64,000 nt of DNA from a virus, in the IMG/VR virus record IMGVR_UViG_3300022699_000224, positions 25,486 to 89,485 of that record; one strand, given 5' to 3'. The translations under genes and the position numbers were made by a program. How positions within the stretch are numbered: position 1 is the stretch's first letter; every line of letters starts with the position of its first letter. The notes beneath the pieces were generated by a model. That model saw only the letters and a program-made list of their open reading frames with translations, had not been told where the DNA came from and ran no database searches. This document shows, piece after piece, positions 13,653-40,610 of the stretch.

Positions 13653-14156
13653 ATGTTAACAATAATAAACAAATTAATTTGGGATATACATAAATTATTA
13701 GCTTATATTAGAAGAGAAAAATTTAGCGCTTTAAGATTTCTAAATAAGTATAATAAAATAGAAATTAAATATAAAGGTTATTTATCATTTGATTTTGATT
13801 CTGTCATTGCAACATATAAAAGACCTTTTAAATATGATATTTTAGGGAAACCTAATAAAGAAATAATTAAAGTTATGAGATATTATTATGAAAAAGGTTA
13901 TCATATTAATATTTTTACAGGGCGTATACTTACTCCTAAAATGAAAAAATGGTTAAGTAAATACAAAGTGCCTTATCATACTTTTAATGTAAATCCTAAA
14001 GTCTTTGATAATGCTTGTAGATTTAAACCATATTATGATTGTATAATTGATGATAAAGGTTTAAATTATCATTTTAAATATAATGCAAAATCTAAAAAGC
14101 AATTAATTAAAGAAATAGATGAAATAATTAAATGGAGCAAAGAGGGTAAAAAATGA
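13653..14156 (+). CDS. HAD-superfamily phosphatase-like protein
   Basis: 167 residues. Motif I is SFDFDSV with nucleophile D47 and acid/base D49, motif II IFTGR near residue 88, and motif IV IIDDKG near residue 129, all in HAD order. The space between motif I and II is compact, as in phage nucleotidase/polynucleotide phosphatase-like HADs. It may remove 3'-phosphates or cyclic phosphates as the missing partner of the kinase at 3741 and RNA ligase at 533, or act on nucleotides. It overlaps the next gene by 4 bases. Confidence 0.65.
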   Translation: MLTIINKLIWDIHKLLAYIRREKFSALRFLNKYNKIEIKYKGYLSFDFDSVIATYKRPFKYDILGKPNKEIIKVMRYYYEKGYHINIFTGRILTPKMKKWLSKYKVPYHTFNVNPKVFDNACRFKPYYDCIIDDKGLNYHFKYNAKSKKQLIKEIDEIIKWSKEGKK

Positions 14157-14635
14157 AAATTATAGATATAATGTATGAACCAGAAAAGAATAAGTATTCT
14201 TTATTAGAAGAAAATTCAAAAAGAAAAGAAATATCTAAAAAAGAATTTTATGATATTCTTCATTTCAAAGAAAAAAAAGCAGAATTTACTGGTAAATATT
14301 CTTTAATGATAGGAAGGTGGCAACCTTTACATAAAGGTCATATTAAATTAATTAGAAAAGTATTAAATCAAGGAAATAAAGTATGTATAGGTATAAGAGA
14401 TAGTAAAAAAGATAATAAAAACCCTTATTCAATTGAAGAAAGAATTGATATGATAAAGCAAGAATTCGGTCAAGAAATAATAAATGAAACAATTAAATAT
14501 GTAGCATTACCTGATATTAAAGAAGTAGTATATGGTAGAAAAGTAGGATGGGGAATTAGAGAAATAAGGTTAGATGAAAAAATAGAAAATATTTCAGCTA
14601 CTAATATAAGGAGAAAATTAAATAATGAAATTTAA
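14153..14635 (+). CDS. NMN adenylyltransferase-like nucleotidyltransferase
   Basis: 160 residues. A roughly 45-residue N-terminal extension is followed by the nucleotidyltransferase signature GRWQPLHKGH (54-63), very close to the GRFQPxHxGH of archaeal-type NadM, and by ISATNIRRKL near 148-157 (the ISxTxxR phosphate-binding motif). This family transfers AMP or CMP; NMN or nicotinate mononucleotide would be the substrate if it is NadM-like, giving NAD or its deamido form. With the NAD synthetase at 23206 it would form the last two NAD steps. The overlap with the next gene is 11 bases. Confidence 0.7.
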   Translation: MKIIDIMYEPEKNKYSLLEENSKRKEISKKEFYDILHFKEKKAEFTGKYSLMIGRWQPLHKGHIKLIRKVLNQGNKVCIGIRDSKKDNKNPYSIEERIDMIKQEFGQEIINETIKYVALPDIKEVVYGRKVGWGIREIRLDEKIENISATNIRRKLNNEI

Positions 14636-14828: not shown

Positions 14829-16310
14829 ATGAATAATAAATATAAAAAAATATTGAATCCCTTTATAAGTTCTCTACAATACGTTTTAAATGATGATAAT
14901 ATAGATGTTTATAAGAACGAACAATATATTAAAGATAGTTTAGCTAATGGAAAAATTTGGGATATTAGTCATTCAGAAGATAATGATTTTAAAAGAATAA
15001 TACAAATTTTTCATCAAACTACCCAATTAGAGAATAGTCTTGATTTTGATTTGGGAGATGAAAATTTATTCGTGCAAGAAAACGAAGATAAAACTGAATT
15101 TACTAATCAAGGTGAATTACAATTACAATTTTCTCCTTGGGCATCAACTTATGCAGGTTGGCACTTAAATGAATCATCTGGAAATATAGCATATGATTTT
15201 TCTGATAACGAAAGAAATGCAATTACTGTAAATAATCCTTTATGGATAGAAGGTAAATTAAATAATTGTTTACAATTTAATGGAATTAATCAATATGTAA
15301 ATTGTGGAGATATAGCTAATTTTGATTATGATGAATCATTTAGTTTAGAATGTTGGTTTAAAACTAAAAGTAAAAATCAAATTATACTTAGTCGTATGGA
15401 TAATAATTTAGTAAGAGGATGGCAATTAGTGCTTCATAAATCTACTTCGATTTATTTTGGATTATATCATACAACAGTCCCTACAAATGCTTTAGTTGTT
15501 TATACTGATTCTACAGGTTGGAATGATGATGAATGGCATCATATAATTATGACTTATGATGGAACTAATAGTCCTTCTGGAATTTGTATTTATATAGATA
15601 GAGAAAAACAATCTTTGATTACATATGGTAATACTTTAACAAGTTCTATAAAAAACCCTGCTAATTGTCAAATTTCAGGAAGAGATGGAGATACTCTTCT
15701 TTGGAAAGGAAATATAGATGAAACTATTATTTATGATAAAACATTAACTGTTGATGAAGTAGCAAATAGATGGAATTCAGGACAAGGAATTGAATTAACA
15801 GGATATGATATTTCTCAAGGTTGGTATGTTCATACTAATGAAAATCAAATAGATACTTCATTATGGAAAAATATAATCAATATAGGATTTACAGAAACTA
15901 AACCAACTGAAACAGAAATAAGATATTATATATCAACTGATAATAGAAATACTTGGAAATATTGGGATAATGACCATTGGAAGAGTGAAAATAATTTAGA
16001 TAATATAGATATACTAGGCAATAGTTCAAGTGAATTAGAATCTTTAAATGAAAATAATTGGATAGATATTGGTTTAACAGATACCTTTGATATTGCTATG
16101 AGTTTAAAGACTATAAATGCAGAAAATACTCCTAGTTTAAGTCAAATTGATATTGCGTATAGATTTCCAGGTAAAATTAAATGTAAAGATTCTCAAATAA
16201 GAATAGAATTAATTTCCCCAACTCTTACTAGAATTACTAATATTTCAGGTGTATTAACTAGTCCTTTAACAGATTTAAGAGCAAATATATTAATTGAAAA
16301 AAAATTATAA
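14829..16310 (+). CDS. LamG/concanavalin-like domain structural protein
   Basis: 493 residues. The N-terminus ILNPFISSLQYV (about 8-19) closely matches that of the beta-helix protein at 55085-56209, so the two may dock to the same virion site. Residues about 105-325 are a LamG/concanavalin-A-like jelly roll (GWHLNESSG, FNGINQYVNCG, FSLECWFKT, WHHIIMTYDG, GNIDETIIYDK). The C-terminal part is beta-rich. It is probably a fibre or receptor-binding/carbohydrate-binding virion protein, although it is transcribed with the left arm and not with the late genes. Confidence 0.7.
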   Translation: MNNKYKKILNPFISSLQYVLNDDNIDVYKNEQYIKDSLANGKIWDISHSEDNDFKRIIQIFHQTTQLENSLDFDLGDENLFVQENEDKTEFTNQGELQLQFSPWASTYAGWHLNESSGNIAYDFSDNERNAITVNNPLWIEGKLNNCLQFNGINQYVNCGDIANFDYDESFSLECWFKTKSKNQIILSRMDNNLVRGWQLVLHKSTSIYFGLYHTTVPTNALVVYTDSTGWNDDEWHHIIMTYDGTNSPSGICIYIDREKQSLITYGNTLTSSIKNPANCQISGRDGDTLLWKGNIDETIIYDKTLTVDEVANRWNSGQGIELTGYDISQGWYVHTNENQIDTSLWKNIINIGFTETKPTETEIRYYISTDNRNTWKYWDNDHWKSENNLDNIDILGNSSSELESLNENNWIDIGLTDTFDIAMSLKTINAENTPSLSQIDIAYRFPGKIKCKDSQIRIELISPTLTRITNISGVLTSPLTDLRANILIEKKL

Positions 16311-16321
16311 CTTAACTAATT

Positions 16322-17062
16322 ATGAAATCAATAAGAAAAATAAGTGTAAAAACAGTAGCTTTAAAAACTATTATATATAGAATTTTTATAATTTTAGTGC
16401 AAGCATTTTTTACTTTTCTTTATATTAAAAATTTTTCTAAAGCATTAAATATAAGTATAGGATGGAATGTAATTAATATAGGATTATATTTTATTTATGA
16501 ATATTTATTTGCTAAAAAGTGGGATATGACTATTCAAACTAAAGGAGCTGTTATATGGTTAACAGGTTTGCCTTGTAGCGGTAAGACTACTATAGGTAAT
16601 AAATTAGCTACTATATTAAAAAGAAAAGGATTAAATGTAGAAAGACTTGATGGAGACATAGTAAGAAAAGGTAAATTAAGTGATGATTTAGGATTTTCTA
16701 AAGAAGATAGAGATAAAAATATTAATAGAATTACATTTGTAAGTAAATTATTATCTAGAAATAAAACAATAGTAATAGCATCTTTTGTTTCCCCCTATAT
16801 ATATACACGAAATAATATAAGAAATAATGTTACAAATTTTATAGAAGTTTATGTAAAAGCTTCATCTGAAATATGTGCTAAAAGAGATGTAAAAGGAATG
16901 TGGGCTAAAGCAAAAAAAGGAATAATAAAAGGATTTACAGGATATGATGACCCTTATCAAAAGCCTAATAATCCAGAAATTATATGTAATACCGAAAAAG
17001 AAAATTTAAGTAATAGTGTTAATAAAATATTAGTCTATTTAGAGAATAAAAAAATTATATAG
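16322..17062 (+). CDS. cysC: adenylylsulfate kinase with N-terminal DUF2061 membrane domain
   Basis: 246 residues. Residues about 8-67 form two hydrophobic spans of the DUF2061 type (VALKTIIYRIF...IYEYLFAKKW). The rest is an APS kinase: P-loop GLPCSGKTT at 82-90, LDGDIVRKGKLSDDLGFS from 108, VSPYIYTRNNIRNN near 157 and GFTGYDDPYQKP near 205. It converts APS to PAPS, the sulfate donor for sulfotransferases, and four sulfotransferase-like genes lie within 6 kb. The membrane anchor suggests PAPS is made at the membrane. No ATP sulfurylase is visible, so APS would come from the host. The start has no clear Shine-Dalgarno. Confidence 0.85.
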   Translation: MKSIRKISVKTVALKTIIYRIFIILVQAFFTFLYIKNFSKALNISIGWNVINIGLYFIYEYLFAKKWDMTIQTKGAVIWLTGLPCSGKTTIGNKLATILKRKGLNVERLDGDIVRKGKLSDDLGFSKEDRDKNINRITFVSKLLSRNKTIVIASFVSPYIYTRNNIRNNVTNFIEVYVKASSEICAKRDVKGMWAKAKKGIIKGFTGYDDPYQKPNNPEIICNTEKENLSNSVNKILVYLENKKII

Positions 17063-17072
17063 GAGACTGAAT

Positions 17073-18341
17073 ATGAAAATAGGAGTAATAGGTTGCGGAT
17101 ATATAGGATTAAATACTTCATTATTTTTTGCTAAAAAGGGTATAGAAGTTATAGGTATAGATATTGATAGAACTAAAGTAGAAGCTATTAATAGAGGAGA
17201 AATTATTATTAAAGAATTAAAAGATTGGCTTCCTTTCGATAGCAAACCTTTATTTAATAATTATATAAAAGCATATACTGATAGTATTAATTTATTAAAT
17301 AGAGGAGATATAGACGTAATCTTTATAGCAGTGCCTACTGAAAAAAATGGAAAGCCTTATTTTAAATGTTTAGAACCTGTTATAAATGATATAATGATGT
17401 CTCCATGTAGAAAATCTTTAGTAATTATTGAGTCTACTTTAATGCCAGGAGTATCTGATAAATATATTAAACCTTATATAAAAAATTTTGTTGTAGCTCC
17501 TCGTAGGGATTGGTTTGATATGGAAGGTAGGAATATCGAAAATATACCAAGAATAGTAGGAGGAAATACTAAAGAAAATACTAAAAAAGCTATTGATATT
17601 TTAAAGTTAGTATGTAAAAAATTAATTCCTTGCACTTATAAAGAAGCAGAATTAGTTAAAGCAACGGAAAATTCAATAAGACATATAGGAGCAGTTTATG
17701 CTCAAGAATTAACTTTAGCTCATCCTGATATAGATATTAGAAAAGTATTAAAATTAGCATCTACGAAATGGAATGTGCCTTTTTATTATCCAAATGTATT
17801 GGGGTCTGGAGGCTACTGTATTCCGTTAAGTAGTAGATATGTAAAACAGTCAGCAAAAAATCCAAAGGATTTAACAATATTAGATAGTGTAATAAATAGA
17901 GATGATAACGTTTCAGAAATTATTGCTAATTATGTTAAACAAAGTAATACTAATTTCCCTTTAGCTTTATTAGGAATTAGCTATTTAGGAAATTTAAAAG
18001 TGGCTATATTATCAGGTAGTTTACGATTTTTAAAACACTTTAATAAATTAGATAATATTTATGTTAATGACCCTTTATACTCAAATAATGAACTTAAAGA
18101 CTATACTGGATTTTCTAAAATAGAATTAAATGAATTAAATAAAACTAAAGTGATTATTATAGGAGTAAATCACGATTTTTATAAACAAAATGTAAAAAAG
18201 ATAATAGCACAAACCCAAAATGCTAAAGTAATATTAGATATTTTTGGGGTTTTAGAACAATATCAGGAATCTTTTAAATGTCCTTATATAGTTCCAGGTA
18301 GGACTAATTGGAGAATAGATTTAAAAATATTATTAAAATAG
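17073..18341 (+). CDS. UDP-glucose/GDP-mannose dehydrogenase family protein
   Basis: 422 residues. The N-terminal Rossmann motif is GVIGCGYIGL at 4-13 with DID near 28 for NAD. The central domain carries the catalytic Glu stretch IIESTLMPG and the active-site Cys in GSGGYCIPLS near residue 252. The C-terminal UDP-binding domain contains LGISYLGN. It oxidises a nucleotide sugar to its uronic acid (UDP-glucuronate or a HexNAc uronate of the WecC type; the substrate cannot be told). It belongs to the glycan cassette. Good Shine-Dalgarno TAGGAGACTGA. Confidence 0.85.
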   Translation: MKIGVIGCGYIGLNTSLFFAKKGIEVIGIDIDRTKVEAINRGEIIIKELKDWLPFDSKPLFNNYIKAYTDSINLLNRGDIDVIFIAVPTEKNGKPYFKCLEPVINDIMMSPCRKSLVIIESTLMPGVSDKYIKPYIKNFVVAPRRDWFDMEGRNIENIPRIVGGNTKENTKKAIDILKLVCKKLIPCTYKEAELVKATENSIRHIGAVYAQELTLAHPDIDIRKVLKLASTKWNVPFYYPNVLGSGGYCIPLSSRYVKQSAKNPKDLTILDSVINRDDNVSEIIANYVKQSNTNFPLALLGISYLGNLKVAILSGSLRFLKHFNKLDNIYVNDPLYSNNELKDYTGFSKIELNELNKTKVIIIGVNHDFYKQNVKKIIAQTQNAKVILDIFGVLEQYQESFKCPYIVPGRTNWRIDLKILLK

Positions 18342-18349
18342 GAATAAAT

Positions 18350-19405
18350 ATGAAAATAAAATTAGCTATTTTTTGCGGTTGTTATGGTAAACATCCTTTT
18401 GGAGGTCCTGCTATTCGTATGCGTAATATAGCCGAAATGTTATCGGAACATAATATAGATTTTAATATCTTTCATAATCATGATTGTCATGAAGATTATT
18501 ATAGACCTGAAGCAATTAAAATAAGTAGAAATATAAATAAAGTAGATTTAAATAAGTTTAATGTTTTTTGGGTTGAACAAGATTTTAGATATGTTACATT
18601 ATTAAATAATAAAGGTATAGAACCAATTATAGGAACTAATATAATACCTAATTCTTGCCCTCAACATGCAATTCCATATATGGATGATTTAGCTAGAAGT
18701 AAACAAAGAATTAAATTAATTAATGAAACAAAACGAATAAAAACGTTAAGAGGCAAATTCTGGCTAGCTCAATCTGATTTTCAAACTAAAGAATTTAGAA
18801 AAATGGGTTTAGATGATACTATATCTATATATCAAGCAAGTAATCCAGTAAATATAAAACAATTTAAATCTTCATACGTAGATAAATCAAAAATAATTAT
18901 AGGATGGACAGGTAAAAATGTATGGCAAAAAAAACCTGAATTTTTAAAAGAAATAGCTTCTGAATTAGAAAACACTATATTTTATTATTTAAGTGAAAGA
19001 ATGAATGAGATAACTTATTTTCCAGATAACGTTAAACAGATAACAGGTAATACAAATATCCAAATGCCTGAAATTTTAAATGAATTATCAATATTTATGT
19101 CTACAAGTGTAACTGAATTACAACCTTTAGGAGTTTTAGAAGCAATGGCATGCGGATTACCAGTAATGGCTTTTAGAACTAGTAGTTTACCTGAATTAGT
19201 TAAACATAATGAAAATGGTATATTAATAGATTTAGCTAATAGAGAACATTATGTAGTAGAAATAAAAAGATTACTTAAAAACCCTGATAAAATAAAAAAA
19301 TTAGGTAAAAATGCTAGAAAATTTATTGTAAATAATTTTTCATATAAAGCATTATTTCCTAAATATAAGAAATTTTTAGAAAAATATGTAAGGATAAACT
19401 CATGA
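18350..19405 (+). CDS. GT4-family glycosyltransferase
   Basis: 351 residues, GT-B fold. The N-terminal acceptor domain begins with a glycine-rich loop (HPFGGPAIRMRN). The C-terminal donor site has the GT4 signature STSVTELQPLGVLEAMACGLPV with the E-x7-E pair, followed by LPELVKHNENGILI. It transfers a sugar from a nucleotide donor; both substrates are unknown. The ATG at 18350 after TAGGAATAA is preferred over the longer reading from 18308, which would run into the dehydrogenase. It overlaps the next gene by 4 bases. Confidence 0.82.
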   Translation: MKIKLAIFCGCYGKHPFGGPAIRMRNIAEMLSEHNIDFNIFHNHDCHEDYYRPEAIKISRNINKVDLNKFNVFWVEQDFRYVTLLNNKGIEPIIGTNIIPNSCPQHAIPYMDDLARSKQRIKLINETKRIKTLRGKFWLAQSDFQTKEFRKMGLDDTISIYQASNPVNIKQFKSSYVDKSKIIIGWTGKNVWQKKPEFLKEIASELENTIFYYLSERMNEITYFPDNVKQITGNTNIQMPEILNELSIFMSTSVTELQPLGVLEAMACGLPVMAFRTSSLPELVKHNENGILIDLANREHYVVEIKRLLKNPDKIKKLGKNARKFIVNNFSYKALFPKYKKFLEKYVRINS

Positions 19406-20004
19406 AATATAATAAAAAATTTTTAATAATAGGACATGGAAATTGCGGAACAGGTTTTATGAGTAAAATTTTACAATCAATAGGGTTTGATATAGGACAT
19501 GAATATATGGGTAAAGATGGAATGAGTTGTTGGTGTTGGTCAGTTACCGATAAGGATAATGATTATCCATTTGGTATAAAATATAAGGATAGATATAAGT
19601 TTGCTAATATTATTATAGCAATTAGAAATCCATTAGATGCAATACAAACTATAAATTATAGGGCTAATAAATCTAGATTAAGTAGGAAATTTAGAGAAAA
19701 ACATTTAAAAATTAAATTTTTTCCAGATGATTATAATAGTTCGGCTATTTCTTACTTAAAATGGTATGAATTAATATTTAAAAATCATCCAGATGCAATA
19801 AAAATTCATGTTGAACAAGCAGAAAAAGAATTAGCTAAAAAATTAGATTTAAGTTTTAAATATAGAATTCCTCATGATATAAATTCAAATAAAAATAAAT
19901 CAGGATATAAGAAAATTTCGCATAGGCAACTTATAAAAAAAATAAAACCTGAAATAGTAAAAGAAGTAATATTATTTGCTATGAAAGAAGGATATATAAA
20001 ATGA
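19402..20004 (+). CDS. sulfotransferase-like protein (1 of 4)
   Basis: 200 residues. The 5'-phosphosulfate-binding loop is GHGNCGTGF at 11-19 and the 3'-phosphate-binding segment IAIRNPLDAIQT near 73, the two PAPS-contact motifs of the P-loop sulfotransferase fold. A small size and low similarity to the three neighbours suggest a different acceptor. It would transfer sulfate from PAPS to a glycan or other hydroxyl acceptor. Four-base overlaps on both sides indicate tight co-translation. Confidence 0.65.
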   Translation: MKYNKKFLIIGHGNCGTGFMSKILQSIGFDIGHEYMGKDGMSCWCWSVTDKDNDYPFGIKYKDRYKFANIIIAIRNPLDAIQTINYRANKSRLSRKFREKHLKIKFFPDDYNSSAISYLKWYELIFKNHPDAIKIHVEQAEKELAKKLDLSFKYRIPHDINSNKNKSGYKKISHRQLIKKIKPEIVKEVILFAMKEGYIK

Positions 20005-20600
20005 ATAAATTATTATTTATTATAGGAATGAGACGTTCAGGAACTAGTATTTTACGAAAATTAATACTTAAAAATCCTGAAGTTGATTGGATAGATTTTG
20101 AACCTCAAGAGTTATTATTAGCAACTGATATAATAAATATAAATAGATATAAAAATAATGAATATTTTAATAAAGTCATACAAAGATATAAACAAGAAAA
20201 TAATAGATATATTGGATGTAAATTAGCATTAAATCCAGGTATTATGGCAATGAGATGGAAATGTTTATATAGAGAATTTCCTAAAGCTAAATTTATTTTT
20301 ATTACAAGAAATTGGTATGATAGTTATCAATCATGGTTAAGCGTAGATATGGATAATATAAGAGGAGTATGTAATTATAAAATGTATAAGGATTGGGCGA
20401 AAAAAATAAAAGATAGTTTTAGAGTATTTTGTAATGAAAATAGTAATTCAATTTTAATTAAATACGAATTTTTACTTAATAATGCTGATAATGAAATGTC
20501 TAAAATATGGAAACTATTAAAAATTCTTAAAATAGAAAATTTACAAAAGTTGATTAAAATACCTGAATATATACTAGGAAAAAAAATAGGACTAAGATGA
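20001..20600 (+). CDS. sulfotransferase-like protein (2 of 4)
   Basis: 199 residues. The P-loop-like 5'-PSB motif GMRRSGTSI lies at 9-17 and the 3'-PB motif FIFITRNWYDSYQSW near 96-110 (R-N-x-x-D-S pattern). It is the most canonical of the four in its N-terminal motif. It is a probable PAPS-dependent sulfotransferase acting in the glycan cassette; the acceptor is unknown. Confidence 0.72.
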   Translation: MNKLLFIIGMRRSGTSILRKLILKNPEVDWIDFEPQELLLATDIININRYKNNEYFNKVIQRYKQENNRYIGCKLALNPGIMAMRWKCLYREFPKAKFIFITRNWYDSYQSWLSVDMDNIRGVCNYKMYKDWAKKIKDSFRVFCNENSNSILIKYEFLLNNADNEMSKIWKLLKILKIENLQKLIKIPEYILGKKIGLR

Positions 20601-21391
20601 AATCAATATATAAAAATCTAAAATATTTTGTATTATTTATAGGATATGAAAGAAGCGGTCATTCTTTAGTAGGTGCATTGTTAGATGCACATAAGAATGT
20701 TATTATTCCTCATGAATATCATGTTTTGAAGAAATTAAAAGAAAGAGATTTCGAGACCAGAGAAGAATTATTTGATAAATTAATAAAAAGGTCAAAGTGG
20801 CAAAAAAATTGTCAAGAGGGAGGAAGAAGTCAAGGGCAAATTCGTATTAGAAATGAGAGAAAATATAGAGAAATAATTTATAAATATAATGTTCCTAATC
20901 AGTATCAAGGAGATTTTACAGAATTAAATATAATAGGAGATAAAAAAGGTGATGGAATTTGTATTGAATATGAAAATAATCCATCTTTACTAACACAATT
21001 AATGGATATAATTAAAATACCTATTAAGTATATTCATGTTATTAGGAATCCTTTTGATAATATAGGTAGAATGGGATTAAATAGAATAGATGAATATTTT
21101 ACAAGAGTTAAAACTGTAGAAAATATTAAAAGAATACATAGTATGGATGTTATAGATATATATCATGAAAATATTATTAAAAATCCAACTAAAGAATTAC
21201 TAAAATTAACTAATTTTTTAAAAATAGAAACTGATGAAAAGTGGATTCAAGATTGTGCATCTATTATATTTGATAAACCTCATCGAAGTAGATATACAAA
21301 AAAATGGACAAGAAGAAAAAAGAATAAAGTTTTAAATAATATGAAGAAATATAGTTTTTTTGAACCTTATTTACAGGAGAATTATGAATAA
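20597..21391 (+). CDS. sulfotransferase-like protein (3 of 4)
   Basis: 264 residues. The 5'-PSB motif GYERSGHSL lies at 17-25 and the 3'-PB motif YIHVIRNPFDNIGRM near 147-161. YHENIIKNPTKELLKLTNFL near 190 matches the helix that follows the substrate site in bacterial sulfotransferases (the NP-x-x-x-x-x-x-x-x-FL pattern). It is probably PAPS-dependent. It overlaps the previous gene by 4 bases. Confidence 0.75.
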   Translation: MKSIYKNLKYFVLFIGYERSGHSLVGALLDAHKNVIIPHEYHVLKKLKERDFETREELFDKLIKRSKWQKNCQEGGRSQGQIRIRNERKYREIIYKYNVPNQYQGDFTELNIIGDKKGDGICIEYENNPSLLTQLMDIIKIPIKYIHVIRNPFDNIGRMGLNRIDEYFTRVKTVENIKRIHSMDVIDIYHENIIKNPTKELLKLTNFLKIETDEKWIQDCASIIFDKPHRSRYTKKWTRRKKNKVLNNMKKYSFFEPYLQENYE

Positions 21392-22316
21392 TTATAAATT
21401 AATTATTTTAGGTTATCCAGTTAATAATCCAAAGGAAATTACATATTGTTTTCAAATGTTAACCTACGGATTATATAAATATTTTAGTAAACTATCTCAT
21501 GTGAAAGTTATACAAAAATCTGTTAAAGAAGATTTGACAATTTTGCCTAATGCAGATTTTATTATAGTTAGTGATATAAGAGAATTTTTTAATAAAAAAA
21601 ATTTAGCATTGTTAAGAACTAAATGCAAAAAAGTAATATCCTTTTTAGAAAATAGAATTCAAAGTGATTATTCTTTTTGTTTTAAAGATGCAGGTAGTAA
21701 ATTTCAGCCAAAAGAAAAATCTAAGATTATACATGCTCCCTATTTACCTGATTTAGTGAAAATACCAAAATCTCGTCATAGAAACACTATTTTATTAGAC
21801 CATATATGGTTATATTGGTGGAAACAAAACAAAAATGATTGGGAAATAAGTAAAGATATTTATAAATGGTTATATGAAATTAAAGATAAATACGAAATAG
21901 CATGTCTTGTTAAAGAACATAAAGACCATGCAGGGGATTGGTCTAAAGAACATTTAAAAGTATTACCATCATTTATAAAACCTATTTTTTCAAGTAATTA
22001 TGTAGATTATTTAAAAGCGACAGAAAAATATGAATATTTTATTTTAACCCATGCAGGTAGTTATAATTATAGTATTATAGATATGATAGCAAGGGGTATA
22101 AAAGTTTTAGTGCCAAAAATTAATAGACATTTATATGCGCCAATAGATTTAGTAAAAAGATTTAATTTTCAAATATTTAAAAATAAACACCAATTATTAA
22201 ATATATTAAAAAATAGACGCAGAGAACCATGCGCAGAATGTATTAGAGGTTATTTTTGCACTCCTATGAACGAAGTAGTTGAAATAATTGATAAAAAATT
22301 AAGGAGCTGGTTATGA
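21384..22316 (+). CDS. probable GT-B glycosyltransferase
   Basis: 310 residues. No signature is strong, but the layout is that of a two-Rossmann GT-B enzyme: an N-terminal alpha/beta half ending in DFIIVSDIREFF, and a C-terminal half with HAGSYNYSIIDMIARGIKVLVP near 235-256, which resembles the donor-binding helix of glycosyltransferases. Four Cys near the C-terminus (CAECIRGYFC) may bind a metal. The ATG at 21384, after ACAGGAGAAT, is preferred over an upstream one at 21360. It overlaps the previous stop by 8 bases. Confidence 0.55.
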   Translation: MNNYKLIILGYPVNNPKEITYCFQMLTYGLYKYFSKLSHVKVIQKSVKEDLTILPNADFIIVSDIREFFNKKNLALLRTKCKKVISFLENRIQSDYSFCFKDAGSKFQPKEKSKIIHAPYLPDLVKIPKSRHRNTILLDHIWLYWWKQNKNDWEISKDIYKWLYEIKDKYEIACLVKEHKDHAGDWSKEHLKVLPSFIKPIFSSNYVDYLKATEKYEYFILTHAGSYNYSIIDMIARGIKVLVPKINRHLYAPIDLVKRFNFQIFKNKHQLLNILKNRRREPCAECIRGYFCTPMNEVVEIIDKKLRSWL

Positions 22317-23206
22317 AACCTTGTGATGTAAAAATATATAGCATATGGGGTATTAGTTTTTGCGGTTCTACTTTATTATCATATTGTTTAGGTAAATCTC
22401 CTGATTTATTTAGTGTAGGGGAATCTCATTGGTTAAAAAATGATATAAATAAAGCTATATGCAAAATTCATGGAGTTAATTGTAATTTTTGGGATAAAAA
22501 TTTCAGAAAAAATATAGATAATAGACGTAATCCTTATCCTATGATAAGAAATAAAGCATTTCATGAATATAATATAAAAGCCTTATTATTATCAGATAAA
22601 AATGCAGATATTTATGAAACTATTATGGCTCCTAAAGGATATGAAAGAATTGATAAAGCTATTTTATTATGTAAAAATCCATATAATCATTTGGCTAGTG
22701 TATTAAGAAAACCTAATAAGAGTATGGGATTTTCTAAAGATATGACTAAAATAGAGTTAGTAAAAAAATCTTTATATAAATATAAAGTTCATTATAAAAA
22801 GGCATATGGATTATTAATATTAAAAGATATTCCGTTTATGATAATAGATTTTGATAATTTTACGAATGACCCTAATTTTTGGCTATATCGAATGTGTCAA
22901 TTTTTAGATATAAAATATACAAATGATATGTCTAAATATTGGAAATTAAATGATAAATCTCATCAATTAGGTGGGAATAGACTAGTATCTTGTAATTTTG
23001 ATTCAGAACCTATGAAAGATGTTTTTTTAGATTTACAATATAATTCTAAAGCACAAGAATGGTATAGAAAGGCACAAAGACATATAAAAACAGATAATAG
23101 ATGGATAAAAGAGTTAACAAATGAACAGAAAATAATTGTTTCGCAATCAGATGCATTAAAGACATTTAAATTATTCAAAAAATCAGCAGGCGAGGTGATT
23201 AATTAA
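22313..23206 (+). CDS. sulfotransferase-like protein (4 of 4)
   Basis: 297 residues. The N-terminal loop SFCGSTLL at 16-23 and AILLCKNPYNHLASVLR near 125-141 occupy the places of the 5'-PSB and 3'-PB motifs; the usual Arg of RNP is replaced by Lys. KSHQLGGNR near 220 is a stretch often seen near the C-terminus of this fold. It is the most divergent of the four. It ends one base into the NAD synthetase ATG. Confidence 0.62.
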   Translation: MKPCDVKIYSIWGISFCGSTLLSYCLGKSPDLFSVGESHWLKNDINKAICKIHGVNCNFWDKNFRKNIDNRRNPYPMIRNKAFHEYNIKALLLSDKNADIYETIMAPKGYERIDKAILLCKNPYNHLASVLRKPNKSMGFSKDMTKIELVKKSLYKYKVHYKKAYGLLILKDIPFMIIDFDNFTNDPNFWLYRMCQFLDIKYTNDMSKYWKLNDKSHQLGGNRLVSCNFDSEPMKDVFLDLQYNSKAQEWYRKAQRHIKTDNRWIKELTNEQKIIVSQSDALKTFKLFKKSAGEVIN

Positions 23207-23904
23207 TGAAGAGTATAGAAAATAAAATAATGAATTGGATTGGAGATAAAGTTAAAGATACTAAGACTAATGGAATAGTTATAGGTTTATCAGGTGGTAT
23301 AGATTCTTCTGTATCTGCTGTTTTATGTAGAAAAATATTGGATAAATTAAAAGTATTTGGAATAATATTACCTTGTTATTCTAATAATAATGATTTAAGA
23401 GATGCAGAATTACTTACTAATAAATTTGATATTCAGTATATAATATATCCCTTAAATGATATGTATGATAGTTTTAAATCCCATAATCCCTTATCAGATA
23501 ATTTAACCGATGCTAATTTAAAATCCAGACTTAGAATGGCAGTGTTATATTATTATGCTAACTATTATAATTCGCTTGTAGTAGGCACTACTAATAAGAC
23601 TGAATATGAAATTGGATATTATACTAAATATGGCGATGGAGGAGTTGATATAGAGCCTATAGCAGACTTATATAAAACAGAAATAAAAAAATTAGCTAAA
23701 TATTTAAAAATTCCTGACAAAATAATTAATAAAGCTCCATCAGCAGGATTATGGAAAGGTCAAACTGATGAAGATGAACTAGGTATTACTTATAGTGAAT
23801 TAGACAAACAATTAAAAAGCAAAAAATATAGTAAACTAGTTAGAGATTTAATTAATAAATCAAAACACAAACGTCAAATGCCTCCTTATTGTAAATTAAA
23901 ATGA
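23206..23904 (+). CDS. nadE: NAD+ synthetase (ammonia-type)
   Basis: 232 residues, full length for the glutaminase-less form. The PP-loop is GLSGGIDSS at 27-35. VGTTNKTEYEIGYYTKYGDG and DIEPIADLYKTEIKKLAKYL form the deamido-NAD site, and PSAGLWKGQTDEDELG is the closing loop. It amidates nicotinate adenine dinucleotide to NAD with ATP and ammonia. It lies among glycan genes but could pair with the NadM-like protein at 14153 to restore NAD. Shine-Dalgarno GAGGTGATTAATTA. Confidence 0.9.
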   Translation: MKSIENKIMNWIGDKVKDTKTNGIVIGLSGGIDSSVSAVLCRKILDKLKVFGIILPCYSNNNDLRDAELLTNKFDIQYIIYPLNDMYDSFKSHNPLSDNLTDANLKSRLRMAVLYYYANYYNSLVVGTTNKTEYEIGYYTKYGDGGVDIEPIADLYKTEIKKLAKYLKIPDKIINKAPSAGLWKGQTDEDELGITYSELDKQLKSKKYSKLVRDLINKSKHKRQMPPYCKLK

Positions 23905-24512
23905 AATTTATAACCTTTTATACAGAAGATACTATTTACGAAAAAGGGTTTAAAAAGTTATTAGAACCTTCTCTAAAAAAATTTGCGTTACCTTACTATG
24001 TAATAAAAATAAAAGATAGAGGGGGATGGGCTAAAAATACTTGTCAAAAACCAAAAATTATTTTAGATTGTTTGAATTTATTTGATGAAGATTTGTGTTA
24101 TATTGATTCTGATGCCAAAATTATTAAATATCCTGAAAAACTATTTATGATACCTAAACATTTTGATATAGCAGTGCATTATTTATCTTGGGAAAATTTT
24201 TATGGCAGGGATTCAGATAAAGGGAAATACGAATTAATAGATGGCACTATTTGGATTAAAAATAATAATAAAATGAAAAGATTTATTAAAAATTGGAAAG
24301 AACAAACAACAGATAGAGAATTAAATCATCAAAAACGATTACATAAAATGTTAGCTAATAAAAAAACTATTAATGTTTATGATTTTGGTAGAGAATATTG
24401 TTATATTATAAATACTAGTTTTGGTAAAAAACCAGCAAAAAAATTAAAAAATCCTGTTATAGTTCATTATCAATATAGTAGAAAAGCTAAAAAAGGTAAA
24501 TTATATGGCTAA
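23901..24512 (+). CDS. GT-A nucleotide-diphospho-sugar transferase-like protein
   Basis: 203 residues. The alpha/beta N-terminal half leads to LCYIDSDAKI near residues 66-75, a D-x-D metal/nucleotide-sugar motif, followed by IDGTIWIKNNN and a C-terminal HYQYSRK. This resembles phage-borne GT-A folds of the GT77/DUF-type group. Sugar and acceptor are unknown. It overlaps the NAD synthetase by 4 bases and belongs to the glycan cassette. Confidence 0.62.
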   Translation: MKFITFYTEDTIYEKGFKKLLEPSLKKFALPYYVIKIKDRGGWAKNTCQKPKIILDCLNLFDEDLCYIDSDAKIIKYPEKLFMIPKHFDIAVHYLSWENFYGRDSDKGKYELIDGTIWIKNNNKMKRFIKNWKEQTTDRELNHQKRLHKMLANKKTINVYDFGREYCYIINTSFGKKPAKKLKNPVIVHYQYSRKAKKGKLYG

Positions 24513-24532: not shown

Positions 24533-25426
24533 ATGTTAAAAAATAGTAAAGTATTAGTTACAGGCGGTGCAGGGTTTATAGGTTCACATATAGTAGATGA
24601 ATTAGTAAAAAATAATAATAAAGTAATAGTGATAGATAATTTTAGTAACGGTAGATTATTTAATCTGATAAATAATATTAAAGATATAAAAATATATTGG
24701 AATGATATTAGAAACATAGATATAGTAGATAAAGCGTGTGAAGAAGTAGATTATGTAATTCATCAAGGTGCGTTAGCTAATGTAACCGAATCTATTAAAT
24801 CTCCTGAAAAATATTTTAGTATTAATGTATTAGGAACTAGAAATATATTACATAGCGCATTAAAAAATAATGTAAAGAAGATAGTTTTAGCTTCTTCTTC
24901 TGCTGTAGAATATTTAACTTCTCCTTATGCTTATAATAAAAAAAATAATGAAAATGATACTTTATCATATATAAAAAATTTTAATTTTCCTATAGTAGCA
25001 TTAAGATATTATAATGTATACGGAGCAAGGCAAAAAGTTAAAACTGATGGTGCAGTTATACCAAATTTTATGAATAAAATATTGAGTAATGATTTTCCTT
25101 TTATATACGGAGATGGAACTCAAAAAAGAGATTTTGTATATGTTAAAGATGTAGTTAACGCTAATCTCTATGCATTAACTTCTAATAATATAGGAATATA
25201 TAGCGTTGGTTTTGGAACAGCATATTCAATAAATTATTTATGTAATACTATTAAAAAATTAGCATTTAAAAATATGAAAACTGTATATATGGAAGCTAGA
25301 AAAGGAGATGTAAAATTATCTCAGTCTAATTGTCGTGAATATTTAACGAATTGGAAACCTAAATTTAATTTAAAAAAAGGATTAAAAGAAACTATTAAAT
25401 ATTATAAGGAGACAATCAAATGTTGA
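24533..25426 (+). CDS. NAD-dependent nucleotide-sugar epimerase/dehydratase (extended SDR)
   Basis: 297 residues. The Rossmann signature is VTGGAGFIGSH at 9-19, VIDNFSNG near 34 is typical of GalE-like enzymes, SSSAVEY and YAYNK (Y-x3-K) make the catalytic triad region, and RYYNVYGARQ follows the substrate loop. It would interconvert UDP-sugars such as UDP-glucose/galactose or uronates, feeding the neighbouring transferases. It uses NAD, the product of the nearby synthetase. Shine-Dalgarno AAGGAGATTCAA. Confidence 0.85.
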   Translation: MLKNSKVLVTGGAGFIGSHIVDELVKNNNKVIVIDNFSNGRLFNLINNIKDIKIYWNDIRNIDIVDKACEEVDYVIHQGALANVTESIKSPEKYFSINVLGTRNILHSALKNNVKKIVLASSSAVEYLTSPYAYNKKNNENDTLSYIKNFNFPIVALRYYNVYGARQKVKTDGAVIPNFMNKILSNDFPFIYGDGTQKRDFVYVKDVVNANLYALTSNNIGIYSVGFGTAYSINYLCNTIKKLAFKNMKTVYMEARKGDVKLSQSNCREYLTNWKPKFNLKKGLKETIKYYKETIKC

Positions 25427-26721: not shown

Positions 26722-27333
26722 ATGAAATATTTTTTTACTTCGGATTTACATTTAGGTCATGCAAATATAATAAAATATTGCGGAAGAACTATATTTATGA
26801 CAAAAAAAGATAAAAATATTTATAAATCTTTACGATATACTAGCAAAGACAAACAACGATTATTTAAAATAAGTAATCTTTCTTTAAATAAAATGAATAA
26901 AGGACTTATAAGAAATTGGAACGAAAGAGTAAAAAAAGAAGATATTATTTTTCATATAGGAGATTTTTGTTTTAAAAAAGTTTCATCTAAGAAATCTATA
27001 GAATGGGAAAAGTTATTAAATGGTAAAGTTATTCATATAGAGGGAAATCATGATTCTAATAATAGCACTAAAACTATTATAAAAAATTTAGTAATTAAAT
27101 ACAGTAATAAAAAAATAAATTTAGTTCATAACCCTACCCACGCTGATTATTATTATAATATAAATTTTGTTGGTCATGTTCATAATCTTTGGAAATTTAA
27201 AAGAATTAAAACTCATTATGGTTTTACTGATTTAATAAATGTAGGAACAGATGTATGGAATTATTATCCTGTAACATTTAATGAGATAATGAAAGAATAT
27301 AATCAATGGTTAAATAAGGAGATTAAGACATGA
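26722..27333 (+). CDS. calcineurin-type metallophosphoesterase
   Basis: 203 residues with SDLHLGHANI at 7-16, HIGDFCF near 79, EGNHDSN near 106, and VGHVHNLW near 153: all five metal-binding blocks in order. This is a stand-alone phage phosphoesterase of the type that often starts TSDLHLGHxNII. Substrates may be nucleotides or cyclic phosphodiesters. It is unrelated in detail to the SbcD-like protein at 10068. Shine-Dalgarno AAGGAGGACTTA. Confidence 0.85.
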   Translation: MKYFFTSDLHLGHANIIKYCGRTIFMTKKDKNIYKSLRYTSKDKQRLFKISNLSLNKMNKGLIRNWNERVKKEDIIFHIGDFCFKKVSSKKSIEWEKLLNGKVIHIEGNHDSNNSTKTIIKNLVIKYSNKKINLVHNPTHADYYYNINFVGHVHNLWKFKRIKTHYGFTDLINVGTDVWNYYPVTFNEIMKEYNQWLNKEIKT

Positions 27334-27590: not shown

Positions 27591-28058
27591 ATGATAAAAA
27601 AAGGAGATATATTATTGGTTAAATATAATTTAGACCCTATAGGTTGGTTAATTCGTAAATTTACTAAATCTAATTGGAATCATGTAGCATGGGTGTTAAA
27701 TAAATATACTGTTATAGAATCATGTCGAAAAGGAATAATATTAACTCCTATTTCAAAATATAAAAATAAAATTTTATATGAAACTAAACTTAAAAGAATA
27801 AAAAATATATCTAAAAAAGACTTAGATATAGCAATTAATATAGCTTTAAAATTTAAACGAAAAAGAAATTATTTTAAATTATTACTTACTTTTATTAATG
27901 TATATTTAAAAATCAATAATAAACTCCCTGACGTAACTTGTTCAGGGCTAATTTCTTATTGTTTAAGTAAAGTAAGTTTTTATTTTAACAAAAATAAACA
28001 TCCATTAATGACAGTGCCTGAAGATATTAATAAATGTAGGAGACTGTATAATGTGTAA
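27591..28058 (+). CDS. permuted NlpC/P60 (YiiX-like) papain-fold protein
   Basis: 155 residues. GDILLVKY at 5-12 and SNWNHVAWVL near 27-36 place the catalytic His, and VTCSGLISYCLSKV near 117-130 the catalytic Cys, in the circularly permuted NlpC/P60 order. Such enzymes cut amide or ester bonds in peptidoglycan or lipids. It could contribute to lysis or envelope remodelling, but there is no signal peptide or holin next to it. Confidence 0.65.
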   Translation: MIKKGDILLVKYNLDPIGWLIRKFTKSNWNHVAWVLNKYTVIESCRKGIILTPISKYKNKILYETKLKRIKNISKKDLDIAINIALKFKRKRNYFKLLLTFINVYLKINNKLPDVTCSGLISYCLSKVSFYFNKNKHPLMTVPEDINKCRRLYNV

Positions 28059-28752
28059 TAAAGAATTAAATTTTACTATTTTAGTTCCAATTTATAATGA
28101 ATCCAAAACTTTATATTCAATGTTAAAAAAATTAAAAGATTGTAATTATAATTATTTAATAGTAGATGATGGGTCTAATGATGGAACTAAAACTATTTTA
28201 CATCAATCTAAAACTAATTTTATAAATTATAAATATAATAGAGGTAAAGGTTATGCTATTAAAGTAGGAGCTAAATTAATATTAGAATCTACTAATAATG
28301 ATTATATCTTAATTATAGATGGAGACGGTCAAATGAGCTTTGAGGACATTAAATATTTTATTATGAGTGCTTACAGTTATCCTAAAGCTAAAATATTTAT
28401 AGGAGATAGATTACATAATCGTTCTTCTATACCGTTATTTAGATATTATATTAATAAAGTTATGAGCTTTTTATTATCTAAAATATCAGGACAAAGAATA
28501 AATGACAGTCAATGCGGATTTCGCTTAATACATAAAGATATATTTAAACTTAAACTTAATTCTAATAATTTTGAATTTGAAAGTGAAATGTTAATTAAGG
28601 CAAGTAAAATGGGATATAAAATAAAAAATGTTCCAATAAGATGTATTTATAAACCAAATAGAATAAGTAAAATAAATCCTATAAAAGATACTATAAGATT
28701 TATTAAACTTCTATTTAATTTATTGAAAAAAGGAGGGAATACATGTATATAA
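28051..28752 (+). CDS. GT2-family glycosyltransferase
   Basis: 233 residues, GT-A fold of the polyprenyl-phosphate mannosyl/glucosyl type: LVPIYNESKTL at 11-21, VDDGSNDGTK near 37, NRGKGYAIKVGAK near 63, and the metal motif IIDGDGQM (D-x-D) near 90, then a C-terminal GFRLIHKDIF. No C-terminal membrane helices, so it is soluble. It closes the glycan cassette. It overlaps both neighbours by 8 to 10 bases. Confidence 0.85.
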   Translation: MCNKELNFTILVPIYNESKTLYSMLKKLKDCNYNYLIVDDGSNDGTKTILHQSKTNFINYKYNRGKGYAIKVGAKLILESTNNDYILIIDGDGQMSFEDIKYFIMSAYSYPKAKIFIGDRLHNRSSIPLFRYYINKVMSFLLSKISGQRINDSQCGFRLIHKDIFKLKLNSNNFEFESEMLIKASKMGYKIKNVPIRCIYKPNRISKINPIKDTIRFIKLLFNLLKKGGNTCI

Positions 28753-40100: not shown

Positions 40101-40610
40101 ATCCTTCGCTTCAATACCAGTTCCTACCATTGCATTTACAGTAGGAACAAAACCTGCAACTGCTTCTTCTGTTTCTAAGTTAGAAGTTTTAAGAAAATAA
40201 AAAGCTTCTGATAATTCCTTTAATGATATTCTAGTTTTAGTTGCCATGTCTAAAATAGTTCTTTCTATAACCTTAATATCAGCTTCTATACTTTCACTAC
40301 TACCATGCATAACAGTTCTTATACGAGCCATTCCTTCTTCTAATTCTAAATTAGCTCTAACTACACCGCTAATAGTTCTAATAACTCCTAGCATAGCACT
40401 TCGTAATGCTAACCATACAGGAGCAACTATTAAAGCTCGTTTACCTGCTTTTTTAAGCACTTGGTCAAATGATTGAACACTTTTACCTGATTTATCGGTA
40501 GTAGTTTTTACTCTTTTTTGTGTCTTAGATATATTAGTTAGTCCTCTAGATACCGTTTTATGTCCTTTAATAGTAGCAAGAAAACTAATTAAGTAATTTT
40601 TAAAACCCAT
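37146..40610 (-). CDS. tail tape-measure protein interrupted by an intein
   Basis: 1154 residues as read; 795 after removal of the intein (residues 209-567). The N-terminal extein has a hydrophobic segment near 62-82 and the tape-measure core pattern (EEGMARIRTVM, TRISLKELSEAFYFLKTSN, MVGTGIEAKDMARAVAG). The C-terminal extein continues QDVQLDELVEGYTKLAPYL and TGRALLQL, then long helical/coiled regions. It sets tail length: at about 0.15 nm per residue the 795-residue extein predicts a tail of roughly 120 nm. It follows two chaperone-type genes, as in other siphoviruses. Confidence 0.88.
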   Translation of the reverse strand: MGFKNYLISFLATIKGHKTVSRGLTNISKTQKRVKTTTDKSGKSVQSFDQVLKKAGKRALIVAPVWLALRSAMLGVIRTISGVVRANLELEEGMARIRTVMHGSSESIEADIKVIERTILDMATKTRISLKELSEAFYFLKTSNLETEEAVAGFVPTVNAMVGTGIEAKDMARAVAGSFNTMGQYMDETLTSAEKFQKISDVLTYTYACYTPDTEVLTDKGWKYFKNLDRTEKVATLNPKNNRIEYQKPIEYVVKHFNGKLCHLKGRFADIKVTPRHKLYTKVGYRPKSQKYILTEAEKVFGRPKGFYRGSNWIGENPEYFVLPGVENKTGKSKAKKIPMKLWLKFLGWYLSEGSYTWKNADDPTYRITIYQSKKSKYWNKLSKVMEEIPFHVSEFERGFIINNKQLCHYLKQFGKSYEKYIPDFVKGLSKDLLRCFINTYTLGDGYYRKNCDSFGIITSSEKMKDDFQEIALKANYGSTCHFRKGTKKTINGIHTKSRGSWSVSFSERVEFLMYNKKNEYYANKENRKITSIEEWIDYKGLVYCVEVPKYHTLFVRRNGKSFWCGNTQDVQLDELVEGYTKLAPYLSGVSDSFTDIVTLLGFLNTRLLRSGRTGRLTGRALLQLTKNADKLASIFGITFDPDKPINFLNTIKLIKESLGESAKITAEQAEALRRVFATRGAVAIRLAIANYEDLAKAIKNADENAEGFSERVARIRMGTTIAQANRFRNILAVLGNDLISGVYASGDFASALKDINNALVSTRPYIDTFGKTIGWLSQHFSNSILLISRWSKTLRLGLETVGNALLLKIPQAIEASKKLKKEIKSATKDTEDMGLLEFEGFIEYANRIDEIKRKRAEERKELQKIEELQKDLAPGGKINIRILKEKKEHLRHIASLMKERGASELDIARYRAKTLIGLKKCLSEEKYILQLTKAHNKVIEKEASYRRELTSLLIEQELALLRTRGISESQVLSLKANLESVLFTEQSELDVLKNLLEIERAITAEKEEQRSVSSESVKLYKLAQKYGINTAKAIGEVLQGISEFEGLTGRERRVISKAFPTFTQGAIASKFFFEGAGREIPIEERPTPTGIRRETISRFTQIAPTIPISVKSDLKVNLDSDRIIEKINEKVRDAIKDKSSDIRKSINNAIEEF
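38910..39986 (-). mobile_element. 359-residue intein with LAGLIDADG homing endonuclease
   Basis: It begins at Cys209 (CYTPDTEVLTDKGW, block A) and ends at Asn567, followed by Thr as the +1 extein nucleophile. Block B is VTPRH (T274, H277). The two dodecapeptide endonuclease motifs are LGWYLSEG (347-354) and INTYTLGDG (438-446). Block F is VYCVEVPKYHTLFV from 543, and block G WCGN at 564-567, with Gly in place of the usual penultimate His. All splicing blocks are present, so it should splice. Base composition looks less AT-rich than the flanks, consistent with transfer. Confidence 0.92.

Follow-up and report, generated by a model that had tools for sequence, protein, structure and literature searches.

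A putative phage sulfation module pairing an APS kinase and sulfotransferase genes with a candidate minimal ATP sulfurylase

The window analyzed here is a 64,000 nt stretch of the virus record IMGVR_UViG_3300022699_000224 from IMG/VR (bases 25486–89485 within 89,485 bp), and it carries a cassette of sugar genes that also includes an adenosine 5′-phosphosulfate (APS) kinase gene, up to four sulfotransferase-like genes and a gene for a nucleotidyltransferase of ~110 residues, designated NT. It appears somewhat probable that these genes form a sulfation module of the phage that brings its own supply of 3′-phosphoadenosine 5′-phosphosulfate (PAPS), in which NT would be a minimal ATP sulfurylase. 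Judging from the gene sequences, sulfation dependent on PAPS is quite likely, a glycan is a fairly probable acceptor of the sulfate, and the case for NT as the APS-forming enzyme is evenly balanced. In the proposed pathway, NT would join ATP and sulfate from the host into APS, and the kinase, probably held at the membrane, would by homology convert APS to PAPS. The sulfotransferases (two assigned by homology, one probable and a fourth possible) would then move the sulfate to acceptors, different ones for each of up to four enzymes, and the acceptor would be a surface glycan built by the neighboring dehydrogenase, epimerase and glycosyltransferases; more speculatively, a HAD-type phosphatase may clear the by-product 3′-phosphoadenosine 5′-phosphate (PAP). 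A first-pass annotation of this DNA had described a nearly complete route to a sulfated glycan. The cassette of kinase, sulfotransferase and sugar genes is real, and the PAPS-dependent part of the route stands, with an APS kinase, at least two sulfotransferases and relatives with the same pairing; however, several parts are weaker than claimed, and the need for a source of APS had been overlooked.

The APS kinase, the sulfotransferases and the nucleotidyltransferase

As judged from its sequence, the product of the gene at positions 16322–17062 (+ strand) is a genuine, canonical APS kinase (CysC), with a PF01583 match at E 1e-54 and a TIGR00455 score of 204.7 bits (cut-off 138.7). The nearest solved structure, 5cb6, aligned along the whole kinase domain (E 9e-52), which is full-length and contains the P-loop and the motifs LDGD..R, FS.EDR and KG..FTG..DPY; the roles that we attach to these motifs are assumed. 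Residues 1–70 are hydrophobic and approach the DUF2061 cut-off (21.4 vs. 23.1 bits), and similar segments recur not only in related phages but also in more distant contigs, L053 and L056 among them, so it is plausible that this N-terminal segment holds the enzyme at the membrane. Its earlier description as a membrane-anchored APS kinase is thus firm for the enzyme, while the anchor is an interpretation of the hydrophobic N-terminus. Among named phages, tblastn retrieved the kinase from five records, at 40% identity at best, and it was unannotated in the two that were inspected.

Two genes downstream of the kinase, at 20001–20600 and 20597–21391 (both + strand), exceeded the Sulfotransfer_3 cut-off of 27 bits (45.6 bits, E 1.3e-11, and 35.1 bits, E 2.1e-8, respectively) and are clear predicted PAPS-dependent sulfotransferases. 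The family profile of 20001 matched tyrosylprotein sulfotransferases best (E 1.1e-10) and also CurM; homologs occur in the viral loci L004, L005 and L022, and tblastn found no match in named phages. For 20597 there was no convincing match in PDB. The gene at 22313–23206 (+ strand), with 24.2 bits against the same cut-off and no useful PDB match, probably encodes a third sulfotransferase. A fourth is possible at 19402–20004 (+ strand), where we recognized by eye two PAPS-loop-like motifs, GHGNCGTG and IAIRNPLDAI. Searches of Pfam, PHROG and NCBIfam at E 0.1 returned nothing for this product, its AlphaFold model, built from two sequences, had a mean confidence (pLDDT) of 38, and its hhalign comparison to the 20001 family covered 22 columns with a probability of 11; it is 26% identical to the product of L006:16391–16966, which matches Sulfotransfer_3 below the cut-off (E 0.0027). 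Used as single-protein queries against viral contigs, 20597, 22313 and 19402 retrieved no relatives, in scans that reach close relatives only. The original count of four sulfotransferases is therefore secure for two genes, with a third just short of the threshold and the last one noted by its motifs.

A scattered or degraded cassette, which had been envisaged for close relatives, was not seen: L004, L005, L006 and L022 keep the APS kinase together with open, differing sulfotransferase genes. In L005, genes for the HAD-type phosphatase, NT and the kinase are followed by three consecutive sulfotransferase genes, one of them 52% identical to 20001, and in L004 the kinase is followed by a Sulfotransfer_2-like gene (19.9 bits vs. 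a cut-off of 22), with the 20001 homolog farther along. The order is sulfotransferase–NT–kinase in L022 (the sulfotransferase being a 20001 homolog) and NT–kinase–sulfotransferase in L063, and an NT–kinase fusion precedes a sulfotransferase in L055, these three from a sulfotransferase set collected with phmmer. The kinase of L006 is followed by a Sulfotransfer_2 gene, a Sulfotransfer_3/Stf0 gene and the distant relative of 19402, and the gene directly ahead of the kinase encodes a sulfate permease resembling CysP (E 1.2e-63; 215 bits vs. a cut-off of 400). On the short contigs of L002/L003 and L007, the kinase and NT are present and no sulfotransferase was found. Retention of the kinase and sulfotransferases alongside variable glycan genes is what would be expected for surface decoration under diversifying selection.

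Since an APS kinase needs APS, a source of this substrate is required. The Sat-type ATP sulfurylase family PF01747 was not found in the whole virus record of the window, nor over its cut-off in any of 50 related viral records with an APS kinase (the contigs of the 53 kinase loci described below, minus L003, L014 and L090, the window's own record being outside this set). What recurs beside the kinase is NT, a minimal nucleotidyltransferase with an HxGH motif encoded at 14153–14635 (+ strand; PF01467, CTP_transf_like, E 1.1e-11), which had been missed at first pass and which we propose as the APS-forming enzyme. NT passes the general TIGR00125 domain and falls below the cut-off of every family of NMN adenylyltransferases (NMNATs) or phosphopantetheine adenylyltransferases (PPATs) listed, including the NadM families PRK01153 (52.6 vs. 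127 bits) and TIGR01527 (45.7 vs. 181.2 bits). In an alignment of 44 NTs, residues G14, R15, G22, H23, R42, P80, G88, R89, G92, S108, T110 and R113 were invariant.

The AF2 model of NT (pLDDT 91) had NMNATs as first neighbors with Foldseek (1ej2, E 2.4e-4), and PPATs and NMNATs tied with VIA (Z 10.1–11.1, root mean square deviation 2.6–3.2 and 104–112 aligned residues among the rows listed; 10.5, 2.8 and 109 for 1ej2), so the fold does not choose between NMNATs and other enzymes. ATP sulfurylases were absent from the best 50 rows of each fold search and the best 60 PDB profile matches, which excludes nothing. The profile alignment of NT to the NMNAT of M. jannaschii ends at PDI (residues 80–82) and resumes, without significance, before the SxTxxR motif (SGTxIR); these two points are separated by nine positions in NT and 34 in the NMNAT, making NT ~25 residues shorter in a part that presumably holds the NMN site. 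Additionally, R42, invariant in 44 of 44 sequences like R89, has no arginine counterpart in the aligned NMNATs. A shorter acceptor pocket and extra arginines would fit a small anion such as sulfate. A weak hint of kinship to ATP sulfurylases at the SxTxxR end may be seen in the near-identical contigs L084 and L088, the sole ones among the 50 related viral records with a PF01747 match at E ≤ 0.001, which lies by coordinates inside their NT genes (14.5 bits vs. a cut-off of 24.3; model positions 172–209).

Linkage of the nucleotidyltransferase to APS kinases in viruses and cells

Searches of viral contigs retrieved 13 loci with the kinase as query and 53 with an alignment, which dereplicated to 39 full-length APS kinases, including that of the window. 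NT is fused to the kinase in 12 of them (seven kinase-first and five NT-first) and lies within 3 kb in another 12. Reciprocally, a scan with five NT seeds, all from APS kinase loci, found 33 viral loci (28 after dereplication), and an APS-kinase-family open reading frame (ORF) was fused to NT or within 3 kb of it in 25 of the 28, or in 21 of 24 when four seed loci are set aside; none was found farther off in the fetched stretches.

We compared random samples of 148 of the 294 ORFs within 3 kb of the 39 kinases and 148 of the 322 ORFs at 5–10 kb, considering the 25 commonest families. Within 3 kb, the list is headed jointly by Sulfotransfer_3, Sulfotransfer_1 and two methyltransferase families, with 8 ORFs each, although many of the Sulfotransfer_3 and Sulfotransfer_1 matches are probably the same proteins, and the window's own sulfotransferases are absent from the sample; Sulfotransfer_2 was found in 3 ORFs, glycosyltransferases ranked next and the thymidylate synthase Thy1 was found in 2. 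At 5–10 kb, none of Sulfotransfer_1, _2 and _3 was among the families listed, which leaves each with one ORF at most, and Sulfotransfer_4 was found once.

NT also occurs in cellular genomes, where a scan confirmed at least 563 loci. The best 80, which were analyzed, are mostly from Pelagibacterales, some of which rank with the most abundant bacteria in the ocean, with a short kinase adjoining NT, and the other seven are from two Omnitrophota, Nomurabacteria, Roizmanbacteria, a member of the Parcubacteria group, a member of Crocinitomicaceae and another of Bacteroidetes. The kinase was fused to NT or within 1 kb in 67 of these loci, farther away in the locus in six and not in the locus in seven. 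We then inspected 18 hand-chosen genomes (the seven from outside Pelagibacterales plus 11 from Pelagibacterales): PF01747 was present in one (Pelagibacter HTCC9565) and a CysD-like sequence, below the cut-off, in another (Omnitrophota L095), so that both known ATP sulfurylase families were unmatched in the other 16. Sulfotransfer_3 was found in 13 of the 18 at E ≤ 0.001, in 12 over the cut-off, and 11 combined a sulfotransferase with neither sulfurylase; these absences are soft, because many of the genomes are fragmentary. Among 285 sampled Omnitrophota, five contained NT, always as an NT–kinase fusion, with Pfam-confirmed sulfotransferases alongside in three (L152, L176 and L178) and PF01747 in one (that of L178). 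Eight cellular sulfotransferase candidates were chosen by eye; they include two sulfotransferases beside the NT pair of Crocinitomicaceae L097, a weak Sulfotransfer_5 match, below the cut-off, in Nomurabacteria L161, and a gene without family match in Roizmanbacteria L092. In this last locus, a gene that by eye resembles serine palmitoyltransferase (L092:1315–2556) lies between the sulfotransferase-like gene and the NT–kinase fusion, which hints at a sulfated lipid.

The pair of kinase and NT could be the missing PAPS route in SAR11. In the portion of PMC5069961 available to us, a table of SAR11 strains shows cysC in five strains and cysQ in all seven, without any cysH, and limits cysN to HTCC7211 and HIMB59 and cysD to HIMB59, whereas the text, contrary to the table, counts cysC, along with sat, as missing from Ca. 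P. ubique. Extending the proposal from the phage cassette, we tentatively suggest that NT may found an unrecognized class of ~110-residue ATP sulfurylases derived from an NMNAT and paired with full or short APS kinases across phages, Pelagibacter, Omnitrophota, the candidate phyla radiation and Bacteroidota; such enzymes would supply PAPS for sulfation in genomes that lack Sat and CysDN, and would account for the orphan cysC of SAR11. This wider claim is somewhat less probable than even.

Arguments against an APS-forming role and competing explanations

Several observations weigh against NT as an ATP sulfurylase. Neither NT from the window (E up to 0.01) nor the HAD–NT fusion of L002 (E up to 0.1) matched PF01747, both being assigned to CTP_transf_like, and the closest sequence relatives of NT are NMNATs. 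For 15 of the 39 dereplicated viral APS kinases, the fetched locus contains no NT, although in one of these (L004) it lies ~12 kb away on the same contig (L046), and the count of kinases beside NT is biased toward kinase-linked NTs because its seeds came from APS kinase loci. In 17 of the 25 NT-paired viral loci, the partner is a short kinase that by motif pattern lacks the APS motif at the C terminus, so NT might serve another nucleotide, and the phmmer sulfotransferase set is represented in 13 of the 39 full-length kinase loci and in none of these 17. Nevertheless, we rejected the notion that short-kinase loci lack sulfotransferases: among 107 of their 116 neighboring ORFs (leaving out eight on the minus strand and a very large one), Pfam finds Sulfotransfer_3 in four, among epimerases, GDP-mannose dehydratases, DegT aminotransferases and glycosyltransferases, which means that the phmmer set undercounts. 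Likewise, the two Pelagibacter loci that were read have short kinases without the C-terminal APS motif, and their pair is placed among genes that by eye resemble Rieske, GcvT and MTHFR genes, with no sulfotransferase seen alongside. According to the available part of PMC5069961, AprBA can form APS from sulfite, making it another possible source of APS in Pelagibacter. In named phages, the best 20 of 83 records mostly matched the first part of NT, and several were annotated as NMNAT. In one named phage, Stenotrophomonas phage vB_SmaS_Bhz60 (Casjensviridae), the NT match is covered by an annotated kinase ORF (L179:2584–3324) adjoining a NADAR-domain gene. A MazG gene is also close by, and the annotation places no sulfotransferase within 3 kb; this phage is, in turn, a possible laboratory system for NT.

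Four other explanations compete with this proposal. NT could be an NMN or nicotinic acid mononucleotide adenylyltransferase serving the NAD+ synthase (NadE) encoded in the same cassette, with APS coming from the ATP sulfurylase of the host and the phage adding the kinase and the sulfotransferases. The presence of NadE would suit this role, as would the NMNATs, along with PPATs, being the nearest relatives in sequence and fold and the annotations in named phages; however, the best NMNAT score is far from the cut-off, the stretch between PDI and SxTxxR is short, the partner of NT in viruses is nearly always a kinase of the APS kinase family (with the seed bias noted), NadE is not among the 25 commonest families near other viral APS kinases, and most of the NT-bearing cellular genomes inspected, many of them incomplete, lack both known sulfurylases, and we consider this explanation unlikely. 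It is distinctly less likely that the sulfate goes to a virion protein or to modified DNA bases instead of a glycan: the best match of the 20001 profile is indeed to tyrosylprotein sulfotransferases and Thy1 occurs near viral APS kinases, but genes for sugar nucleotides and glycosyltransferases neighbor the kinase both in the window and at other viral APS kinases, and no base-modification enzyme was found among the 25 commonest of the 37 families in 53 of the 62 other ORFs of the record (eight short ORFs and the DNA polymerase were left out of this tally). For such targets, PMC10829341, in the parts consulted, attributes to Iyer et al. (2013) phage systems of nucleotide modification based on glycosyltransferases or sulfotransferases.

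The kinase, NT and the sulfotransferase-like enzymes might also use another 3′-phosphonucleotide donor, which seems improbable. The model would be Campylobacter Cj1415–Cj1418, which make CDP-phosphoramidate 3′-phosphate to decorate the capsule and in which Cj1415 is, we presume, a relative of APS kinases. The common occurrence of short kinases without the APS motif beside NT would agree with such a donor, and a precedent is provided by the part of PMC11800397 available to us; on the other hand, the window kinase clears the family cut-offs for APS kinases and its alignment with solved members runs from end to end, and in L006 the gene ahead of the kinase encodes a CysP-like sulfate permease. 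Lastly, an assimilatory role, in which the phage kinase would feed the CysH of the host for cysteine synthesis, follows the interpretation of phage cysC in PMC10914622, as far as its accessible text goes. PF01507 (CysH/CysD) was over the cut-off in only four of the 50 viral APS kinase records (six at E 0.001), with no match among the 30 window ORFs scanned, and sulfotransferases are among the joint commonest neighbors of the kinases, making the assimilatory interpretation doubtful for these phages and, for this cassette, highly improbable. We retain a sulfation module with its own PAPS supply as the preferred interpretation.

Sugar genes, other genes of the record and known systems

The cassette genes between 13653 and 29132 are all on the + strand and overlap or are separated by very short gaps, of -11 to +20 bases, with an extra value of -22 that depends on a start other than a start codon; ORFs were picked by length in scripts, without a gene finder. 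Strand and spacing would be compatible with the single transcription unit that had been suggested. No terminator-like site was found on the + strand between 9700 and 29650, where chance alone would give ~3 over both strands. A promoter scan of the region found 162 sites vs. 178 expected. The window is AT-rich (19–33% GC per 2-kb step) and contains phage genes for a tail tape-measure-like protein, baseplate and a family B DNA polymerase. Megablast of the cassette gave no phage match, and neither did tblastn with a 544-residue protein (58330–59964) that was taken for the terminase, without family match; the DNA polymerase is too distant to point to a host.

The set of dehydrogenase, epimerase and glycosyltransferases reported in the first-pass annotation is present, although the epimerase and two of the glycosyltransferase-like genes (23901 and 28051) lie beyond the interval that it gave (16322–23206). 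Following the kinase on the + strand, there are genes for a nucleotide-sugar dehydrogenase, probably uronate-forming (17073–18341; PF03721, E 4.9e-24; PF00984, E 9e-8; TIGR03026, 173.4 bits vs. a cut-off of 189.8), which matches the N-terminal, central and C-terminal domains, the latter below its cut-off, and has a GGYC motif in the translation; a GT4-type glycosyltransferase (18350–19405; PF00534, E 1.1e-18); and a product resembling a glycosyltransferase by eye (21384–22316; best PHROG at E 0.019, no Pfam or NCBIfam match at E 0.1). The NadE gene (23206–23904; PF02540, E 2.3e-75; PRK13980 and TIGR00552 over their cut-offs) sits within the glycan cassette and overlaps the last sulfotransferase-like gene by 1 base. 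Downstream, on the same strand, are genes for a nucleotide-diphospho-sugar transferase-like protein (23901–24512; PF03407, E 5.2e-5, 23.8 vs. 22 bits), an NAD-dependent sugar epimerase/dehydratase (24533–25426; PF01370, E 5.3e-51), a calcineurin-like phosphoesterase (26722–27333; PF12850, E 4e-7) and a GT2-type glycosyltransferase (28051–28752; PF00535, E 1.7e-17).

Upstream of NT, and overlapping it by 4 bases, a gene at 13653–14156 (+ strand), also missed at first pass, encodes a HAD-type phosphatase (PNKP/HAD-IIIA-like; TIGR01662, E 0.0013, under the cut-off) that is a candidate PAP 3′-phosphatase or other helper. Its homolog is fused to NT in L002:6460–7185, overlaps NT in L005 and is also found in L006; we rejected it as a general part of the module because, apart from the window, it was confined to the contigs of L002/L003, L005 and L006. 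Between NT and the APS kinase sits the gene for a LamG/concanavalin-fold protein (14829–16310, + strand; PF13385, E 6.7e-18; PHROG virion structural protein, E 2.7e-8), likely a virion protein or adhesin. In the same record, upstream of the window, L018:1710–2189 encodes a protein with a GGDEF (diguanylate cyclase) domain, whose translation carries the signature SGDEF (PF00990, E 4.5e-31 in the record tally); cyclic di-GMP often controls surface polysaccharide, and this protein may belong with the glycan cassette. Other genes of the record include L018:1–483 and L018:3335–4063, with LGNxVxLGN hexapeptide repeats (left-handed beta-helix) that are possibly acyltransferase-like or structural (Hexapep in 3 of the 53 ORFs tallied); a RecA-like ORF of ~700 residues, recognized by eye and perhaps interrupted by an intein (L019:3513–5600; RecA, Intein_splicing and LAGLIDADG are in the record tally, the bearer ORF being unspecified); an MgtC-family membrane protein, also by eye (L018:15988–16440; PF02308 in the tally); and, in the window, the tail tape-measure-like protein (37146–40610), with a weak intein-splicing match below the cut-off (E 3e-4).

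Among the titles and abstract openings listed for a literature with few subscription papers (in several cases part of the matches: 15 of 601, 10 of 108 and 8 of 13), we found no description of a phage PAPS module feeding sulfotransferases or of a sulfurylase formed by NT and an APS kinase. If the proposal is true, many of the phage cysC genes now attributed to sulfur assimilation would serve sulfation and modify surfaces, and a widespread family of small enzymes would be assigned a role, that of a third type of ATP sulfurylase. Streamlined ocean bacteria without Sat and CysDN but with cysC, cysQ and sulfotransferases would, in that case, gain a testable route to PAPS. A sulfated surface made by the phage would matter for how receptors are recognized, for superinfection exclusion and for resistance to enzymes that cut polysaccharides.

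The cassette shares features with several known systems. The kinase belongs to the same family as the cysC auxiliary metabolic genes of phages in PMC10914622, but it is found beside sulfotransferases and a nucleotidyltransferase, and the main text of that paper, as available to us, reads cysC as assimilatory and does not contain the term sulfotransferase. As with the viral sulfotransferases presented as auxiliary genes in PMC10829341, those of the window are in a phage genome; that paper describes such genes as co-occurring with other transferase and modification genes, and the parts of it consulted discuss neither PAPS supply nor cysC or APS kinase. The proposed decoration of a surface glycan through a 3′-phosphorylated nucleotide donor parallels the O-methyl phosphoramidate (MeOPN) capsule pathway of Campylobacter, as described in the portion of PMC11800397 available; we noticed no counterparts of Cj1416–1418 among the cassette genes as annotated, where no search aimed at those families was made. 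NT shares its fold and the HxGH and SxTxxR motifs with NMNATs of the NadM/NadR type, but differs from them in being ~25 residues shorter, in its invariant R42 and GR.VG, in its partner from the APS kinase family and in its scores, far under the NMNAT cut-offs. Finally, although NT, with ~110 residues, does not belong to PF01747 and is by sequence nearest to NMNATs, unlike the corresponding domain of PAPS synthetases, its association with the kinase resembles that in the bifunctional PAPS synthetases (PAPSS1/2, and the SAT/APS kinase 2gks), where the nucleotidyltransferase is likewise joined to the APS kinase in one protein or encoded together with it, with both orders occurring among the viral and bacterial proteins.

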